Positions 45,146 through 56,687 of a stretch of DNA of 64,000 nucleotides are shown here, piece after piece. The stretch is taken from positions 558,001-622,000 of the forward strand of contig NZ_CP010070.1 in assembly GCF_000800805.1 (NCBI RefSeq), in the 5' to 3' direction. Each line of letters begins with the position of its first letter. The stretch's first letter is position 1. Below the pieces are notes generated by a model, which searched no databases, was not told the origin of the DNA, and was given only the letters and a program-made list of their open reading frames with translations. The stretch comes from Candidatus Methanoplasma termitum. Lineage in GTDB: Archaea; Thermoplasmatota; Thermoplasmata; Methanomassiliicoccales; Methanomethylophilaceae. The translations under genes and the position numbers were made by a program.

Positions 45146-45964
45146 TTATAGATTTTTGAGTCTTGTGAAAGATGCGCTCTGCACCGCCATGACAACAACC
45201 CCTATGTCCAGGGGGTCGTTGATTATTGTCTCCGCCCTTTTGATCCCCAGCCCATCAAAGGGGAACGGTATCCCCGGAGATGATATTATTGCTCCTTTTT
45301 TCACAAATCTCCCGTCTATCGCACCCGGGCATGCGTTGAGCACAAGCAGATGCGATGACAGGGCCGCATTAGCATCGTCTGCGATCTTTATCGGAACACG
45401 GAGAGAAAGTTCTTCCGCAGCCTTTCTGTCTATATCGTAAACTGTCACTGCCGCACCCATCTCGTTCATGAGTTCGGCGGCGATGCTTCCCACTCTCCCC
45501 GCCCCAAGTACAAGGACATCTTTCCCTTTGAGTCCTTTTGCCGCTCCTTTGAGTGCCGAGACGTACCCTGCAGCCGTTGCGAACGAATTGTCCGAATATC
45601 TTCCGTCTTTAGTGTTGACTGCGATGAATTTGATATCGTCTGCCATAAAAACAATATCCGCCTTGGCGGAGAGGGCTTCTGCGAGGCCGTTCACATCGGT
45701 CCCGTTTGTGACGAACGGTTCCATCCCTATCCTTCTGACTATTTCCGCAACAGATTCGGAGAATTTTGAAATAGTTCCTTTACCGGCCGTGATAGGCACT
45801 ACTCCCACCTTGATCCCGTCAAGGTCGATCATATCGGGCGTGATGCCGATCGCATCGCACGCCAGCTCTATCGTATCCATGCCCGTCAGGGTTATCAGCA
45901 TCTCGTTGGCACTGTCCAGGGACCTGATGATATCCTTGACCATTCCGTCGGTAAGTCTTGTCAT
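45146..45964 (-). CDS. pylD: Pyrrolysine biosynthesis dehydrogenase PylD
   Basis: A 272-residue enzyme that oxidises the PylC product so that the pyrroline ring closes to give pyrrolysine. The Rossmann loop is VLVLGAGRVGSIAAELM (about residue 150), with the second half containing VYDIDRKAAEEL. The N-terminal helical domain starts MTRLTDGMVKDIIRSLD. Length and cluster position match known PylD. The ATG overlaps the pylC stop (TAATG). Stop is TAA. Confidence 0.93.
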   Translation of the reverse strand: MTRLTDGMVKDIIRSLDSANEMLITLTGMDTIELACDAIGITPDMIDLDGIKVGVVPITAGKGTISKFSESVAEIVRRIGMEPFVTNGTDVNGLAEALSAKADIVFMADDIKFIAVNTKDGRYSDNSFATAAGYVSALKGAAKGLKGKDVLVLGAGRVGSIAAELMNEMGAAVTVYDIDRKAAEELSLRVPIKIADDANAALSSHLLVLNACPGAIDGRFVKKGAIISSPGIPFPFDGLGIKRAETIINDPLDIGVVVMAVQSASFTRLKNL

Positions 45965-47124
45965 TATACCATCCTCGGAGACCTGTCGACATATTCATCC
46001 AGTTCGCATTCGTCCATCACGTTCCTGATGAACTTCTTCCTCTTTTCGAGGACCTCGGCCGGGGTCTTTCCCTTTGTCATCACCGTTGCCCTCCATACAT
46101 CTTTGCCCGGGGCGTAGTCGGTTATCGCCTCGTCCGCACCGAAAAGCCTCTCTTCGAACCTCGGTCCGTTCACTTTTCCGAAGACCTTTTCACCGGAGGT
46201 GCATAAGCGTCCGTTCTCGACTACATAATGTTCATATGCGGAACATTCGTTTCTGTTCTTCCTTCCCGTGCTTTTGTCCATGAATGAGAACGCAAGCTCT
46301 TCCAGGATATTTATGTCGGTGGCGGCCCATATCGCCGCCGGGGTCTGACTGGGGATACGGGCATCAACCTCCAACACCCTGAGCCCTTTTTTCGTGTATA
46401 TCGCTTCCACATCCATCAGCCCCTTCAGTTCGATGGCCTTTGCAATGTTCTGTCCGATATCCTTGAACAGGTCGTCATCTTCTTTCGGTAAAATGTTCGG
46501 TCTGCATTCTACCATCTTACAGTCGTAATTATAGTCGAGTATGACCTCGGTCGTGACGAAGGATCTTGCCGCAACCCCCTTTCCGACCACCTCGATGGAA
46601 ACACTTTTTCCGGAAACGAACTCCTGCATTATCGGTATATCACCGAGATCTTTGACGATCTTCAGCGCGGCTTTCATTTCCTGTTCGTCGTTGACCGCGG
46701 AAACTCCTACGCTTCCGCTCTGAGAAGATGGTTTGACTATTATGGGGAACCCGCATTCCGGCCACGGCTGCGGCATCGGTACGCCTATTTTTTCCATGAC
46801 ATCGTTGGTCCTCTTCTTTGAACAAGAAAATCTATAGGCATGAAGATCGAAAAGGAACGGGATGTCCGATCCTTTCATCATTTTGTCCAACACGGTCAGA
46901 GCGTCGATCTCTTCGCATGCGGGGATCACAACATCACAGTCATGAAGGACCTTTCTCGCTTTTTCGGTATCCTTGGTCACATCCAGTATCTCGTGTGAGT
47001 CTGACAGCGACAGTGCGGGAGCGGTGCCTTTCCTGTCGATCACCATTGTTTCAAATCCCGCTTTCTTTGAAAGGAACGCCGCCTCCATCCCCTGCAGAGC
47101 CCCGCCTACGATTCCGATCTTCAT
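45964..47124 (-). CDS. pylC: Pyrrolysine biosynthesis ligase PylC
   Basis: A 386-residue ATP-grasp ligase that joins 3-methylornithine to lysine. KIGIVGGALQGMEAAFLSKKAG is the N-terminal Rossmann-like fold. FPIIVKPSSQSGSVGVSAV is the ATP-grasp region, and LMDVEAIYTKKGLRVLEVDARIPSQTP contains the metal ligands. It overlaps pylB by four bases and shares one base with pylD's start, so all three are translationally coupled. Confidence 0.94.
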   Translation of the reverse strand: MKIGIVGGALQGMEAAFLSKKAGFETMVIDRKGTAPALSLSDSHEILDVTKDTEKARKVLHDCDVVIPACEEIDALTVLDKMMKGSDIPFLFDLHAYRFSCSKKRTNDVMEKIGVPMPQPWPECGFPIIVKPSSQSGSVGVSAVNDEQEMKAALKIVKDLGDIPIMQEFVSGKSVSIEVVGKGVAARSFVTTEVILDYNYDCKMVECRPNILPKEDDDLFKDIGQNIAKAIELKGLMDVEAIYTKKGLRVLEVDARIPSQTPAAIWAATDINILEELAFSFMDKSTGRKNRNECSAYEHYVVENGRLCTSGEKVFGKVNGPRFEERLFGADEAITDYAPGKDVWRATVMTKGKTPAEVLEKRKKFIRNVMDECELDEYVDRSPRMV

Positions 47125-48182
47125 CCTACCACCGGCTGTTGTTCCTTCAATTTTTTCAGAAGACTTTCATATTCTGTGTTTGAGGCGGCCTTCTTTCCCA
47201 TCTCATCAAGGAGGTGCATCACGTGTGCGACCGACCTGTGACCGTTCTCGATGTCCAATTCATGCTGAGCCACTCCGGCGAGATCCTGATGGGGCGGAAC
47301 TATCGATGTTATCACATTGGCCCCGGCATCCAATCTGCTCTTTAACCCCGCGATCCCTTCCACATCAAGGGAAGCGGGGATCAGCCTGTCTGGGTATATA
47401 AGGCGCATGACTGCGATCGCAATAAGTTCATCAATTGGTCTGGACGGTTTCATTTTCTCCATCGGCGTCCCTTTCTGCGGGACGAACGTCATTGCCCTGA
47501 TCTGTTCGCAGCCGAGTGACCCCATTTTTATTATGGAATCCGCTCTGTCCTTAAGGCTCTCTCCGAGACCGACCATGATCCCGTCCTCCGCCAGAATGCC
47601 GGCCTCCCTTGCCCATATCTTCTGACTCAATCTGTTGTCAAAATTCTGTTCGAGGCGAAGTTTATTGAAAAGTTCTCGATTGTATGTCTCTTGGTAACAG
47701 GCGAACCAATCTGTTCCAGCTTCCTTGAATTTTACGAAAGAACCGCTAGGAACGGCTCCCGGAGATGCCATTACAGATATATCGATCTCATCCTTGATCG
47801 TCCTTGTTATATCCAAGAACTCCTCATAATCGTTAGCGCACATGAACGGGTCCTCGCCCATTGTCAGATCCACAAGATTTATCCCGGCATCCTTGAGGCT
47901 TGCCGATAACGCCAGAACCTCTTCTTTTGTCTTCCTGTACCTGGGAAGATCGTTTGTTCTTCTGTAGTAGCAGAACGCACAGTTGTTCCTGCAATGGGTC
48001 GAAAAATAAACGAACCCGTACATAAACACCTTTTTCCCGAAGAACCTGTCTCTTACAGAGGCTGCCGCCGAGAACAGTCTGGATATGTCATCTTCGCTCC
48101 GAACGGAGAGGAGCTCTGCAACATCTCCCGTCGATGCGCTTCCGCCCATTTCTATTTGCTCTATTATATCAGAAACACTCAT
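47121..48182 (-). CDS. pylB: Methylornithine synthase PylB (radical SAM)
   Basis: A 353-residue radical SAM mutase that converts lysine to 3-methylornithine, the first step to pyrrolysine. The cluster-binding motif is CRNNCAFCYYRR (C-x3-C-x2-C, about residue 65). DLTMGEDPFMC and FACYQETYN follow, and VPPHQDLAGVAQHELD lies near the C-terminus. ATG at 48182 with AAGGGAAA upstream is preferred to the GTG just before it. It begins about ten bases after pylS. Confidence 0.94.
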   Translation of the reverse strand: MSVSDIIEQIEMGGSASTGDVAELLSVRSEDDISRLFSAAASVRDRFFGKKVFMYGFVYFSTHCRNNCAFCYYRRTNDLPRYRKTKEEVLALSASLKDAGINLVDLTMGEDPFMCANDYEEFLDITRTIKDEIDISVMASPGAVPSGSFVKFKEAGTDWFACYQETYNRELFNKLRLEQNFDNRLSQKIWAREAGILAEDGIMVGLGESLKDRADSIIKMGSLGCEQIRAMTFVPQKGTPMEKMKPSRPIDELIAIAVMRLIYPDRLIPASLDVEGIAGLKSRLDAGANVITSIVPPHQDLAGVAQHELDIENGHRSVAHVMHLLDEMGKKAASNTEYESLLKKLKEQQPVVG

Positions 48183-48192
48183 CACTTTCCCT

Positions 48193-49017
48193 TCAGTTTA
48201 TTTTCGCACCGTTCAAGTAACTCAGGCTCCTGCCAGTCTTCTTAACTGTACTTTTTTCGTTCATTATCATAAGTAATCTTTCTAACCCGAATCCGATGCC
48301 GGACCACGGTTCGTGTATATCGTGCGCATTATCGAGTACATGCGGACCGACGGCGCCTGAAGCTACTTCGCCGCCGTCGATCTCCACATCAAGGGTCTCG
48401 ACATATACATCGGACTCCTCCCTGACAAGAGTATATTCAAGGCCCGTGACCTTCATCACAGCACCAATATGGTCTTTCAGGGCTTCGGTAGCGTCGCCCT
48501 CCGGCCCGAGCTCGACAAGATTCAGCATTGTGAACTCTTCCAGGTGGGAACCGCTGTGAGATTCTTTCCTAAAACATGAACCGATCTCGAATATCTTCAC
48601 AGGACCGTCTGTGTGGTCCCTGAGCTTTCTCATCACATAATACAGGTTCATTGCGTGCATCGGGCGCAGACATCGTTTGTCGTCTATCATGAAGACCTGT
48701 TTGTACAGTGGGTGTTCCGGCGTTATCGTCATTTTTTCAAGGGAAGCGACAGAAACAAAAGCCGGGGTCTTCACTTCGATGAACCCTCTTGCAATAAGCG
48801 CTGCGGCAAGATCCTCTTCAAGTGCGGCAAGCTGATGTCTTGAAGGCGACCTTAACATTCCGGCTATCTCTTTTTCGTTCGATGAGACCAGGTCGGACAT
48901 TAATTTTGAGAATGCCTTATCCCTCTGCTCAACATTTTGATATGTGGAATTGTCTCTCGGGTCTTCTCCGAACTCCCTTAACTTCTGGATCTGAGAAGGG
49001 GTGAATCCTATACTGAT
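48193..49017 (-). CDS. pylS: Pyrrolysyl-tRNA synthetase, catalytic domain only
   Basis: A class II synthetase of 274 residues that charges tRNA-Pyl. GSCFRKESHSGSHLEEFTMLNLVELG is split between motif 2 and the amino-acid pocket, and EPWSGIGFGLERLLM is motif 3. There is no N-terminal tRNA-binding domain, as in other Methanomassiliicoccales. The frame upstream of the first ATG (48900) encodes conserved sequence FTPSQIQKLREFG that aligns with the N-terminus of the M. alvus enzyme, so the true start is upstream. No ATG, GTG or TTG exists there in frame. The codon at the aligned first position is ATC (49017-49015), five bases after GGTGGTG. Confidence 0.9.
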   Translation of the reverse strand: MSIGFTPSQIQKLREFGEDPRDNSTYQNVEQRDKAFSKLMSDLVSSNEKEIAGMLRSPSRHQLAALEEDLAAALIARGFIEVKTPAFVSVASLEKMTITPEHPLYKQVFMIDDKRCLRPMHAMNLYYVMRKLRDHTDGPVKIFEIGSCFRKESHSGSHLEEFTMLNLVELGPEGDATEALKDHIGAVMKVTGLEYTLVREESDVYVETLDVEIDGGEVASGAVGPHVLDNAHDIHEPWSGIGFGLERLLMIMNEKSTVKKTGRSLSYLNGAKIN

Positions 49018-49036: not shown

Positions 49037-49106
49037 TGGCGAGAGACCGGGGGATCGAACCCCGCTGGTTGAGCTTTAGAGGCCTACTGGTCCCAGACCG
49101 TCTCCC
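49037..49106 (-). tRNA. pylT: tRNA-Pyl (CUA anticodon)
   Basis: A 70-nt tRNA including an encoded CCA. A 7-bp acceptor stem (GGGAGAC with GTCTCTC, one G-U) is followed with no linker by a D stem GGTC/GACC closing a loop of only three bases. The anticodon loop is CTCTAAA with CUA. The anticodon stem is imperfect. The T arm is CGGGG-TTCGATC-CCCCG. These odd features match the tRNA-Pyl type of Methanomassiliicoccales, and the gene lies 19 nt upstream of pylS on the same strand. Confidence 0.95.
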
Positions 49107-50150: not shown

Positions 50151-50197
50151 TAACCACGTCAAGGATATATTAAAAAAGAATGTTATTCGGTGATAAG

Positions 50198-51580
50198 ATG
50201 GTGGCGGCAAAACCTATAACAATATTCGAAGCATACGACCGATTTCTAAATGGAAAAAAAGAGCGCGAGGACACTTGGGACTATGTGACAATTCCGAACA
50301 ATGCCACAAAGATGAAAGAAAAATACAAGATAGAGTTCGGAAAGAACATTATCCCGGAAGACAAGGATGAGATGAACAGACTCTTCCTCGCAGGAGTAGA
50401 AATGCTTGTCGAGACCGGATTCTTCAATCCCGATCTGGGAAGGGTCATGTATGTCACTGAGTCTGAAGTACTTGAGGGCATAAAAAAAGCTCCGAAATAT
50501 CTGAGATTGGGGAGCGGTAGAGATGAAGTTATGTGCCAACGGCGCCGCGGGAACGCTCCTACAAAGCCTATCATTCAGGGAGGGCCGACGGGTGCCCCCG
50601 TGTCGGAAGAGGTATTCGTTCCGATGATGCAGGGGTACGCTCAAGAATCGACTGTTGATACATTGGTCAGCGGCGTTATGTCTACGGTGGGCGGTCATGC
50701 ACCGACCGTCAATACTCCCTGGGAGATCAAAGCTACTTTAGCTGAGATCCGTGCAGTGAGAGAAGGAATGACGCTGGCAGAACGTCCCGGTATGGCCATA
50801 TAGGGACCGAATACCCCGCTGTCCGCTGCCGGACGACTCGTTTCGAGCCTTCATTCCGGTCTGGAAAAGACCGATCTTCATGAATGCTCTCAGCTTAACG
50901 AGATGAAATTGGACATGACGGGATTGAACATGCTATCCGGCTGGGCCGTAAATGGGGACACGATCCTGATGGAACAGATGCCCATTTTCGGAGGGTATTG
51001 CGGCGAAGCGGAAGAAACGGCGATATGTGACGTCGCAACCACCCTTGCTTCATTCGTAATGTTCGGATCGCACATCCATTTGGACGGCCCGATACACATC
51101 AGATGGGGAATAACGACGGCGAGAGAGACCCTCCAGATATCATCCCATGTTGGGGCCGCATTGGATCTGAACACAGACCTTTTGCTCTCGAACCAGTATT
51201 ATCCTTTGGCGGGACCGTGCACAGAAATGTGTCTGCTCGAGACCGCAGCGCAGTCGATAGCGGATACCGCCTCGGGAAGAGAACTGATATCCGGGTCAGC
51301 GGCATCTAAGGGTGTCGCGAGAGACAAAGTAACACCGCTCGAAGCGAGGATCATGGGAGAGGCTGCGATCGCCACCGCCGGTATGAAGATCACAGATGTG
51401 AATGAGATCTTAGACCGCCTTATCGGAAGCTACGAGACGGAATTCCACCACCCTCCAAAGAGCAAACGTTTCCAGGATTGTTATGATCTTAAGACGATCA
51501 CGCCTTCCGACGAATACCTCGGAGTGTATGAGAACAGCATCAATCTGCTCAGCGAGTTGGGCCTGTACATAAAAAATTGA
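50198..51580 (+). CDS. mtmB: Monomethylamine methyltransferase with in-frame amber (pyrrolysine), copy 1
   Basis: A 460-residue methyltransferase that transfers the methyl group of monomethylamine to the corrinoid of MtmC. A TAG at 50801-50803 interrupts the frame at codon 202, the known Pyl position of MtmB, and is read as pyrrolysine; the frame continues GPNTPLSAAGRLVSS and runs to TGA at 51580. The start is ATG 50198 (MVAAKPITIFEAYD) with GGTGAT just upstream. An in-frame ATG six codons earlier has no such site. There is no mtmC directly beside it; ramA follows after 112 nt. It must not be split into two genes. Confidence 0.96.
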
Positions 51581-51692
51581 GGCGGTGTTATGATCGAACT
51601 TTTCACAGAAAAAAAAGTTTTTACAAACATTTTCTCATATTAGGTGTCGGAGCTTAAGGCAGGCTCTGCACAGTTATTAGGTCGGTGATAAG

Positions 51693-53309
51693 ATGTAGTA
51701 TGGAATAGCTTTGGATATTGGAACAAGCGGATTGAGGTGCCAGGCGATTGATCTTGAAACAAAAGAGACCTTATCGTCGGCAATGACCTCCCGTCATCCC
51801 ATCCCGGGGATGAATGTAATAGACCATGTGAATTTTGCAATGGATGCCGGCAGGGATGTTGCGAACAAACTTATGATCGGGGCGATCAATAATCTCTTTA
51901 AACTTTTAGAAGTGGATCTTTCAAAAGTATGCAGGATCGCAGTTTGCGGGAATCCGTTCCAGATGTCATTGTTCCAGAACATTGAGATCAGGGACCTCGC
52001 GTTTGCAGGAAAATCCATGATAAAAAAACTTGGCATTACTCCTCCCGACAGGAACGGTGCGGTCATAAAAACCTCCCTTCTGGGGATCGAGGGCATTGAC
52101 GCCGATGTGATCATACCTCCGGCTGTGACACATGAGATCGGCGCTGACGCAATGGCCATGCTTACAGAGACAGGCGTCCTTGAGAAAGAAGGGATCAGGA
52201 TCGTGGTCGACTATGGGACCAACGCCGAAATGGCATTGATCCATGGGGACAATATATTGACCGGTTCGGCTGCGGCCGGTCCCGCACTGGAGGGCCAGCA
52301 GATAAAGGACGGTATGCTTGCGGCACCCGGTGCCATTTCGAACATTGAGATAAAAGAAAATGGGTGGCTCTGTTATGTTCTTGACGATGCACTCACTCCG
52401 CAGACGGGCGATCTGATCGACCCGGTCTCCGGAAAGATCGTTTCAAAGGGCAAGATGGACGGAAAAGCGGTCGGGATCACCGGCACAGGAGTCGTTGCGG
52501 CAATAGCATGCGGTTTCGAATCGGGTCTCGTTTCGGGTTCCAAGATACTCACCCCGGACGGCACGCTGCATCTGCAGGACGGTGTGAACATAACATCAAA
52601 AGACATCGATGAGGCCGGAAAGGCCATCGGCGCCTTACGTGCCGGATATCTTACGCTGATGTTGGAAGCCGGCATTTGGGTCGATGATGTAAAGACCGCA
52701 TATATGTCCGGCGCTTCCGGCCTTTATGTCGATGCCAAAAAGGCACAGAAGATAGGTATGGTGACCCCTGGTGCAACGGAGATAGTGCAGTATGGGAACA
52801 CTTCGATCATGCTGGCAAGAAAGATGGTGACTGGAGAGAAAACGCTGGATGAACTTAGGGATATGACAAAGAAGCTGAGAGCAAAACACTGCATGTTCGC
52901 CTCGTCCGACGCTTTTAAAGACATCTATTCGGTAGAGATATCCCTGTGGTCATATGGGATGCCGTGGTCAGCATACAATGAGATGATGGATGTGTATGGT
53001 CTTAAGCACGTGCCTGCAGAGCCTGAGAGATCGACATCCGAGCGCAGGTCTGCCACCGATCTCCCGGAACTGAGGGGGAAAAAGGTATCGATCCTTGAGA
53101 ACGCGGGTGTGGAGCTCTCCGGCCTGGTTCAAGGTTGTATCTCGTGCAGAAAATGCGTCAAAGAATGTCCAGAGTCGGCGATAAGTGTGGAAAAAGCCGC
53201 TATCACGATCAAGTCGGACAGATGCATGGGCACTGCGTGCAAACGCTGCGAGATGATATGTCCCGAAAAGGTGCTGCAGATAAAAACACTGAGAATAAAA
53301 GAAAATTAA
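51693..53309 (+). CDS. ramA: Corrinoid protein reductive activator RamA, with amber as codon 2
   Basis: A 538-residue protein that uses ATP to reduce inactive Co(II) corrinoid proteins of methylamine methanogenesis. The N-terminal part is an ASKHA-like ATPase fold (YGIALDIGTSGLR, VVDYGTNAEMAL, GASGLYVDAKKA). The last 60 residues carry two 4Fe-4S motifs, CISCRKCVKECP and CMGTACKRCEMICP. GGTGATAAG lies directly before ATG 51693, exactly as in mtmB1, and the next codon is TAG (51696-51698), then TAT GGA ATA GCT, giving the expected conserved N-terminus. The nearest other start, TTG 51711, would cut that strand off. TAG here is therefore probably read as pyrrolysine. Confidence 0.9.
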
Positions 53310-54644: not shown

Positions 54645-56030
54645 TCAGTGCTTTATGTCCAGACCGGCTTCCCTCAGCTTCTTGACTGCACCTGCGTATA
54701 CCTTCAGGTATTCGGCGGTCGGCTTGACGGTTAATACGTCATAACACTCGCTGAATGTCTTTCCGGGAGGCGCTTTGGTGTAGTTCTTCTCGTAGCCTGA
54801 GACAAGCTTCTCAAGAACCGCATTGACATCGGGTATCTTCATGCCGGCAGTGGCTATTGCAGCCTCTCCCATGATCCTGGCTTCCATACCTGTTGTCTTA
54901 TCCATTGCCACACCCTTTGCGGCAGCGGAACCGGAGAGAAGCTCTCTTCCTGATCCCGTGTCGGCAATTGCCTGTGCGGCCGTCTCGAGGAGACACATCT
55001 CTGTGCAGGGTCCTGCGATCGGATAGTACTGGTTTGCCAGAAGCAGGTCGGTGTTTGCATCGATCGCTGCCGCCGCGTGCGCGGCTATCTGCAAGGTCTC
55101 CCTTGCCGTGGTTATTCCCCACCTTATGTGGATAGGTCCGTCGAGGTGGTAGTTCCCCGAGAACAGAGCGAAGGATGCGAGTGTTGTTGCAACGTCGCAG
55201 ATCGCTGTCTCTTCGATACCGCCGCAATATCCTCCGAAAATCGGCATCTGCTCGATCATGATGGTGTTACCGTTGGCGGTCCATCCTGCGAGCATGTTCA
55301 GTGCGGCCATGTCCACTTTCAATTCGTTCAACTGCGAGCATTCGTGTGAGTCGCACGGTCTCATTCCCGTGTATCTCATGTCAGAGGCGAGACGTCCAGC
55401 TGCGGACAGCGGCGTCTCCGGTCCCTACATAGCCATATATGGCCTGCCTGCCCTTGTCCTCGCCTCATCCACTCCCCTGATCTCTGCCATCATGGCGCGT
55501 ATCTCATAGGGGGTGTTCGTTAGCGCAGGGTGTCCCTCGATCGTTGACATAACACCGTTGACGAGTGTGTCGACGACCGACTCCTGTGCATAACTCTGCA
55601 TGACTTGAACAAATATCGTTTCCGTAACCGGGGCACCTGTGGGTCCTCCCTGGATTATCGGCTTAACTGGACTGTTACCTCTGCGGGGGTAGAAGCGCGC
55701 GCAGTCTCTTCCCTCTCCGAGTATCAATTGTTTGGGGGTCTTTTTTATTCCTTCCCATACTTCCTCTTCGGTAATTTTCAATACCCTCTTGAGGTCCTGG
55801 TTGTAGAATCCGGTCTGAACCAGCATTTCCAAACCGGCGTTGAACAAGTTGTTCATCGTTGTTTTGTCTTCCGGTATGATCTTCTTGCCGAAGTTCAGCT
55901 TGTATTTTTCTTTAAGTTTTGTCGCGTTGTTCGGAATTGTCGAATAGTCCCACTCTTCTTCGGAGACTTTCTTTCCGGCGATGAACCTATCATACACGTC
56001 GCATATGTTAAGCGGTCTTTCTGCTGCCAT
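54645..56030 (-). CDS. mtmB: Monomethylamine methyltransferase with in-frame amber (pyrrolysine), copy 2
   Basis: A 461-residue paralogue of copy 1. TAG at 55427-55425 is codon 202 when translation starts at ATG 56030 (MAAERPLNICDVYD), which has GGGGTGA six bases upstream. The ATG two codons earlier is less well placed. The context around the amber (ATG TAG GGA CCG) differs from copy 1 (ATA TAG GGA CCG) by one codon. The downstream half holds GGYCGGIEETAICDVATTLASF and HIRWGITTARETLQIA, conserved with copy 1. It is in an operon with mtmC and amt. It is one gene, not two. Confidence 0.96.
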
Positions 56031-56036
56031 TTTCAT

Positions 56037-56687
56037 TCACCCCTTCATTTTTGCCATTAGTTTGTTCACGAGCTCAACGATCTCGGCACCGTTCTCAGAG
56101 TATCCGTCGGCTTTTATCTCGTCGCACCACTTTTGTGTAACCGGTGCGCCACCGATGATCACCTTGAAAGCCGCTTTTGCTTCTTTCACCGCTTTGACCA
56201 TTTCGCCCTGTACAATCATGGTCGTTGTCATAAGCGCCGAACCGCCGAGCACCTGTGCACCGTGTTCTGCGCCTGCTTCCATGAACGCCTCCGGCGATAC
56301 ATCGGGTCCCAGATCATAGACCTTGTAACCGGCCCCACGGAGCATTGCGCAACAAACGTTTTTGCCAATCTCGTGGATATCCCCCTGAACGGTCCCCATT
56401 ATTATGGTACCCTTCATCACATTGTTACCGGCGGTCATGAGCGGTGCGAGTATTGCAAGCCCCTTTTCCATTGCTTTCGAAGCCGCAACTACCTGCGGGA
56501 GATAGATCTCTGCTTTGTCGAAACGCTCACCGATCGTTTCCATTCCTTTTCCAAGACCGTCCTGTACTATCACTTTGGGATCGATCTTGGCCTCGATTGC
56601 CGCTTTTGTGGCACTCTCAGCAAGTTTAAAATCCCACGTTTCGACGGCCTTTTTGAGGTCTGCTATTATTTTTTCTTTTCCACTCAT
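56037..56687 (-). CDS. mtmC: Monomethylamine corrinoid protein MtmC
   Basis: A 216-residue corrinoid protein that accepts the methyl group from MtmB and passes it to the MtbA-type coenzyme M methyltransferase. The helical cap domain spans residues 1-88. The B12-binding domain has the DxHxxG motif in GTVQGDIHEIGKNV, whose His is the cobalt ligand, then GGSALMTTTMI and VIIGGAPVT. GGTGAT lies three bases before the ATG. It is first in the mtmC-mtmB2-amt operon. It is the only mtmC in the window, so both MtmB copies may share it. Confidence 0.95.
   Translation of the reverse strand: MSGKEKIIADLKKAVETWDFKLAESATKAAIEAKIDPKVIVQDGLGKGMETIGERFDKAEIYLPQVVAASKAMEKGLAILAPLMTAGNNVMKGTIIMGTVQGDIHEIGKNVCCAMLRGAGYKVYDLGPDVSPEAFMEAGAEHGAQVLGGSALMTTTMIVQGEMVKAVKEAKAAFKVIIGGAPVTQKWCDEIKADGYSENGAEIVELVNKLMAKMKG

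Follow-up and report, generated by a model that had tools for sequence, protein, structure and literature searches.

A probable pyrrolysine codon directly after the start codon of ramA in Candidatus Methanoplasma termitum

For Candidatus Methanomethylophilus alvus, 16 further pyrrolysine (Pyl) proteins have been predicted, TAG accounts for 1.6% of stops, and a new amber in such a low-TAG background has been argued to be a stable mutation (PMC4153887). For ISO4-H5, 46 genes with in-frame ambers have been counted (PMC5011839). The gene ramA is absent from the alvus Pyl-protein table of PMC4153887 and is not named in the passage of PMC5011839 considered for ISO4-H5; our literature search found no paper naming ramA as a Pyl protein. 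In PMC4153887, coding sequences that end in TAG were screened after being fused to the sequence that follows them, and the predictor of PMC3639795 scores candidates down when the part before the amber is short. Both designs would therefore tend to miss ambers at codon 2.

Among methylotrophic methanogens, RamA is known from M. barkeri, as cited in PMC2933860 and PMC9842639. A start codon followed directly by a stop triplet is likewise found in the start-stop (AUG-stop) elements of eukaryotic leaders (PMC8172242). Those elements lie outside the coding part of the main frame and repress, whereas the AUG and TAG described here are codons 1 and 2 of ramA itself.

Here, we analysed a 64,000-nucleotide stretch of the Ca. 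Methanoplasma termitum genome (the window) in which ramA carries TAG as its second codon. As in the putative non-methyltransferase Pyl proteins of alvus and ISO4-H5, the in-frame TAG is lineage-specific, homologs lack it and about 2% of stops are TAG, but in ramA the TAG directly follows the start codon. A neutral Pyl residue was reportedly described by Heinemann et al. in 2009 for Thg1 of Methanosarcina; Thg1 and RamA would both carry Pyl at a dispensable site through neutral evolution, although Thg1 is a different protein and its site is internal. We know of no earlier case of suppression immediately after initiation, nor of any paper on the proteome of Methanoplasma termitum.

The 5' end and reading frame of ramA

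The 5' end of ramA, from 51684, consists of GGTGATAAG followed by ATG-TAG-TAT-GGA-ATA-GCT-TTG-GAT-ATT, with sequence and coordinates exactly as given in a first-pass annotation of the window. The Shine-Dalgarno sequence and spacer, GGTGATAAG (51684..51692, + strand), are identical to those of mtmB1 (50189-50197). The ATG (51693..51695, +) aligns with the ATG of orthologs (GTG in L200), and where ramA has the TAG (51696..51698, +), its nearest orthologs have AGA, AGG, AAG or ACA. Read through this TAG, the gene (51693..53309, +) would encode a corrinoid protein reductive activase of 538 residues with Pyl at residue 2, ending at TAA, as identified by profile, domain and fold. The same twelve bases, GGTGATAAGATG, precede both mtmB1 (50189) and ramA (51684) and occur in exactly two copies in the window, which agrees with the annotation's statement that the two genes share ribosome binding site and spacing; with at most one mismatch, four matches were found versus 0.37 expected by chance. 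The orthologs L200, L202 and L217 have GGTGATA equally far upstream of their start codons. Among 1104 coding ORFs called in the genome, ramA alone has a Shine-Dalgarno-led ATG directly before its upstream bounding stop, which makes a chance origin of the arrangement unlikely.

In a profile search, the RamA frame matched TIGR04270 with 706 bits over positions 5-533 of 534 (curated cut-off, 500 bits), which identifies the frame as RamA; its conserved N-terminus, YGIALDIGTSG, follows the TAG. Pfam RACo domains and 4Fe-4S motifs (Fer4 matches) were also detected. Across 30 homologs, Tyr3 and the C-terminal 4Fe-4S cysteine columns are invariant, and the ATPase residues are kept. The AlphaFold model has a mean pLDDT of 87.5 (93 for residues 1-10), and AlphaFold together with Foldseek assigned it the RACo fold. 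RACo, which serves as corrinoid activator in the acetyl-CoA pathway (PDB 3zyy, 4c1n), shares this ASKHA-type fold and ranked first in both the Foldseek and the profile comparison, the alignment beginning at residue 3; it carries additional domains at its N-terminus and lacks an amber, whereas RamA has C-terminal 4Fe-4S motifs. With its full-length TIGR04270 match, its ATPase and 4Fe-4S motifs and its position beside mtmB, the protein resembles RamA of methylotrophic methanogens but differs in the codon-2 amber, which was absent from all other TIGR04270 5' ends that we inspected in the order. Its predicted function is the ATP-dependent reduction of methylamine corrinoid proteins.

Without suppression, the codon-2 amber would prevent any RamA from being made, and ramA might then be a pseudogene that the TAG has recently silenced. 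We find this barely credible and reject it on dN/dS: against two full-length genus orthologs, dN was 0.11-0.12 and dS about 1.8, giving a dN/dS of about 0.06, and the ramA branch showed no acceleration. Moreover, the Fe-S cysteines, the ATPase residues and the mtmB-ramA gene order are all kept.

Alternatively, RamA might be initiated downstream of the TAG, with or without reinitiation, at TTG 51711 (codon 7, 51711..51713, +) or at a codon outside the canonical set, for example ATA 51705. No canonical start precedes this TTG in the open frame, and the annotation is right that no ATG, GTG or TTG lies between it and the TAG. In addition, pylS of the genus seems to start at a non-AUG codon, so this lineage could use unusual starts. 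However, the Shine-Dalgarno sequence is placed for ATG 51693, a placement kept in orthologs, and none lies at a usable distance for TTG 51711. Codons 3-6 (YGIA) are under purifying selection, being conserved in relatives with synonymous changes, and are therefore translated. Strand 1 of the AlphaFold model spans residues 3-9, and the phosphate-1 motif with its preceding strand (YGIALDIGTSG) is present only when the TAG is read through. The first-pass claim that a TTG start would delete the first strand holds in part: the TTG lies inside strand 1 and would cut it, but the loss of residues 1-6 takes away four of the seven strand residues, not all of them. We rejected the TTG 51711 start on Shine-Dalgarno distance, the invariant Tyr3 and strand 1, and consider initiation anywhere downstream of the TAG improbable. 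Ortholog 5' ends, selection, Tyr3 and the modelled strand 1 all point to ATG 51693 as the real start of ramA and to the TAG as a codon inside a working gene.

Pyrrolysine machinery and ambers in the genome

The genes for tRNA-Pyl and PylS and the pylB- and pylC-like ORFs lie just upstream of mtmB1-ramA on the opposite strand. The tRNA-Pyl gene (49037..49106, - strand; CTA anticodon at 49077-49079) was recognised by eye; it does not have the standard tRNA shape and was missed by ARAGORN. Sequence and genus comparison placed pylS at 48193..49017 (-), with an apparent ATC start at 49017-49015. The pylB-like ORF (47121..48185, -; radical SAM methylornithine synthase) and the pylC-like ORF (45964..47124, -; ATP-grasp ligase) were named from sequence and position.

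The pylS start is a separate observation. In the genus, the conserved N-terminus of pylS contains no ATG, GTG or TTG, one genome having a chance upstream ATG. ATC occupies the aligned start codon in 13 of 13 genus genomes (loci L167-L179; 49017-49015, -, in the window), and GGTGAT stands three bases before it in most of them; outside the genus, all 17 loci have ATG at the same or the next codon. In L177, stop codons close the stretch before the ATC within a few codons, leaving hardly any other place for the start. From these comparisons, PylRS probably has a genus-wide AUC start, and initiation of pyrrolysyl-tRNA synthetase at AUC would have a direct bearing on Pyl supply.

Two mtmB genes, identified as ORFs with homology, carry ambers in the window: mtmB1 (50198..51580, +; in-frame TAG 50801-50803), directly upstream of ramA, and a second mtmB (54645..56036, -; in-frame TAG 55425-55427). 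No Rfam match to PYLIS was found up to E = 1 at ramA, nor at mtmB1, and PYLIS-type elements are not obligatory (PMC4153887). At the amber of the second mtmB, PYLIS_1 gave a weak match (55325-55427, -; 31.7 bits versus a gathering score of 70).

The genome is a single contig of 1,488,669 bases, rated 99.96% complete. TAG ends 22 of 1104 called ORFs (2.0%) versus 17% of stop triplets being TAG, the ORFs having been called from sequence pieces no longer than 20 kb and from the window, independently of any curated annotation, with loss of those crossing a border. Besides the two mtmB, about four TAG-split genes show homology or coding signal on both sides, a situation also described for other Methanomassiliicoccales (PMC4153887, PMC5011839). 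These are a CfbC/NifH-like reductase gene with two in-frame TAGs (L111:4849-5676, -), recognised by homology or coding signal; an adjoining double CfbA-like chelatase gene with one (L111:4062-4934, -); an IS1634-type transposase gene with one inside the family match (L095:3660-5195, +); and an uncharacterised gene with one and coding signal on both sides (L136:6166-7179, +). We considered the two-amber CfbC-like gene as proof of a constant Pyl supply and rejected it, because the genome encodes a second CfbC homolog (47% identical); it also has further CfbA homologs. The other amber genes are likewise accessory or have paralogs, and therefore give no such proof. Possible early ambers before a GT2 glycosyltransferase gene and a glutamine synthetase-like gene (MKO..) are candidates only.

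In ramA, the in-frame TAG is followed by conserved coding sequence in frame with the start, and the genome has tRNA-Pyl and PylRS genes, the features by which Pyl proteins are recognised. Because tRNA-Pyl and pylS are present, TAG is a rare stop and other genes are interrupted by TAG, reading the TAG as Pyl is the simplest account. Pyl at residue 2 of RamA is thus the best reading of the sequence, and probably the right one.

Codon 2 across relatives

The ramA 5' end reads ATG-AGA-TAC-GGA-ATA in L198/L053 and L202, ATG-AAG-TAC-AGA-ATA in L199/L054, ATG-AGG-TAC-GGA-ATA in L217 and GTG-ACA-TAT-GGA-ATA in L200, so that residue 2 of these relatives is arginine, lysine or threonine. Codon 2 varies across orthologs generally (AGA, AGG, AAG, ACA, AGC, GAA and others). 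The alignment of ramA 5' ends across the order, which the first-pass annotation had proposed as a check, gave no conserved amber: TAG precedes the conserved Tyr in 1 of 147 genomes, this one alone, in a degenerate pattern search (TAG then Tyr-[Gly/Cys]-Ile, two mismatches; 5' ends read from about 75 loci). The near matches in this search had TCG, GAA, AAC, AGG, GAG, AAG or ATG before the Tyr. When 102 genomes of the family were searched for ATG-TAG with the motif behind it, the result agreed, this genome alone being found. AAG is one substitution away from TAG, and the commoner AGA and AGG are two or more away.

In a different genus of the family, a RamA homolog (L163; G379:C23:1800-4400) has an internal in-frame TAG (..GQSIOCGMLAAPG..), which aligns with a Lys of the RamA of this window and is independent of the codon-2 amber. 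With an amber at a Lys site in this homolog, the family evidently tolerates ambers.

The ramA TAG rests on a single assembly, and a lone occurrence, one substitution from the codon of a relative, is also what a sequencing or assembly error would leave if the true codon were AAG or similar. We judge such an error quite improbable, as the genome is a single contig of 99.96% completeness and other in-frame ambers occur in it.

Origin and meaning of the codon-2 amber

Other members of the genus also have mtmB followed by ramA. In this genome, the two mtmB, both needing Pyl, are the only methylamine methyltransferase genes detected, and searches revealed no dimethylamine or trimethylamine methyltransferase of the Pyl type. 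A corrinoid protein of the MtmC type, named by eye from its sequence, is encoded by an ORF next to the second mtmB (56037..56687, -) and is the likely client of RamA. The genome has a second RamA homolog, which is amber-free and adjoins mtaB- and mtaC-like genes, named from sequence. RamA therefore probably serves the MtmB system only, with MtmC as its sole client. As this system is itself Pyl-dependent, RamA would be of no use without Pyl, and the amber would cost little.

The annotation had inferred that RamA is gated by Pyl supply. One part of this claim stands: a functional ramA contains the TAG, Pyl at residue 2 is its best reading, and synthesis of RamA would depend on Pyl-tRNA. However, the gate would add little control, because the only methylamine methyltransferases are the two Pyl-requiring mtmB products. 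A regulatory use of the amber, the second part, is a different matter. ATG-TAG could be a selected start-stop element at which the ribosome senses Pyl-tRNA before making the activator and otherwise terminates, fixed in this lineage. The amber stands at the first possible elongation codon, where failed readthrough wastes almost nothing, and it occurs in the methylamine-linked RamA but is absent from the methanol-linked paralog. Such a selected element nevertheless seems unlikely to us: the amber is found in 1 of 147 genomes of the order, at a variable codon one step from AAG; the likely only partner pathway of RamA needs Pyl anyway; and unrelated ambers occur elsewhere in the genome. These observations argue against the amber as a regulatory device.

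Taken together, we consider it likely that ramA starts at ATG 51693, that its TAG is read through as Pyl, and that the amber is a tolerated neutral point substitution whose Pyl dependence is a by-product. In the proposed sequence of events, initiation would occur at ATG 51693 and tRNA-Pyl would read the TAG, so that RamA would begin Met-Pyl-Tyr-Gly-Ile-Ala. The amber probably arose in this lineage by a point substitution (Lys AAG to TAG) at a codon without a conserved residue, and would be neutral. It would have been tolerated, TAG being already rare as a stop and RamA being useful only with the Pyl-requiring MtmB. The dependence of RamA on Pyl would then be a by-product and not an evolved switch.

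This reading would add the activator of the methylamine pathway to the probable Pyl proteins, at an unusual site, codon 2, and would make ramA a natural test of tRNA-Pyl against termination straight after initiation. If the amber is cost-free because the pathway needs Pyl, genes used only for methylamines should gather ambers more readily than others.
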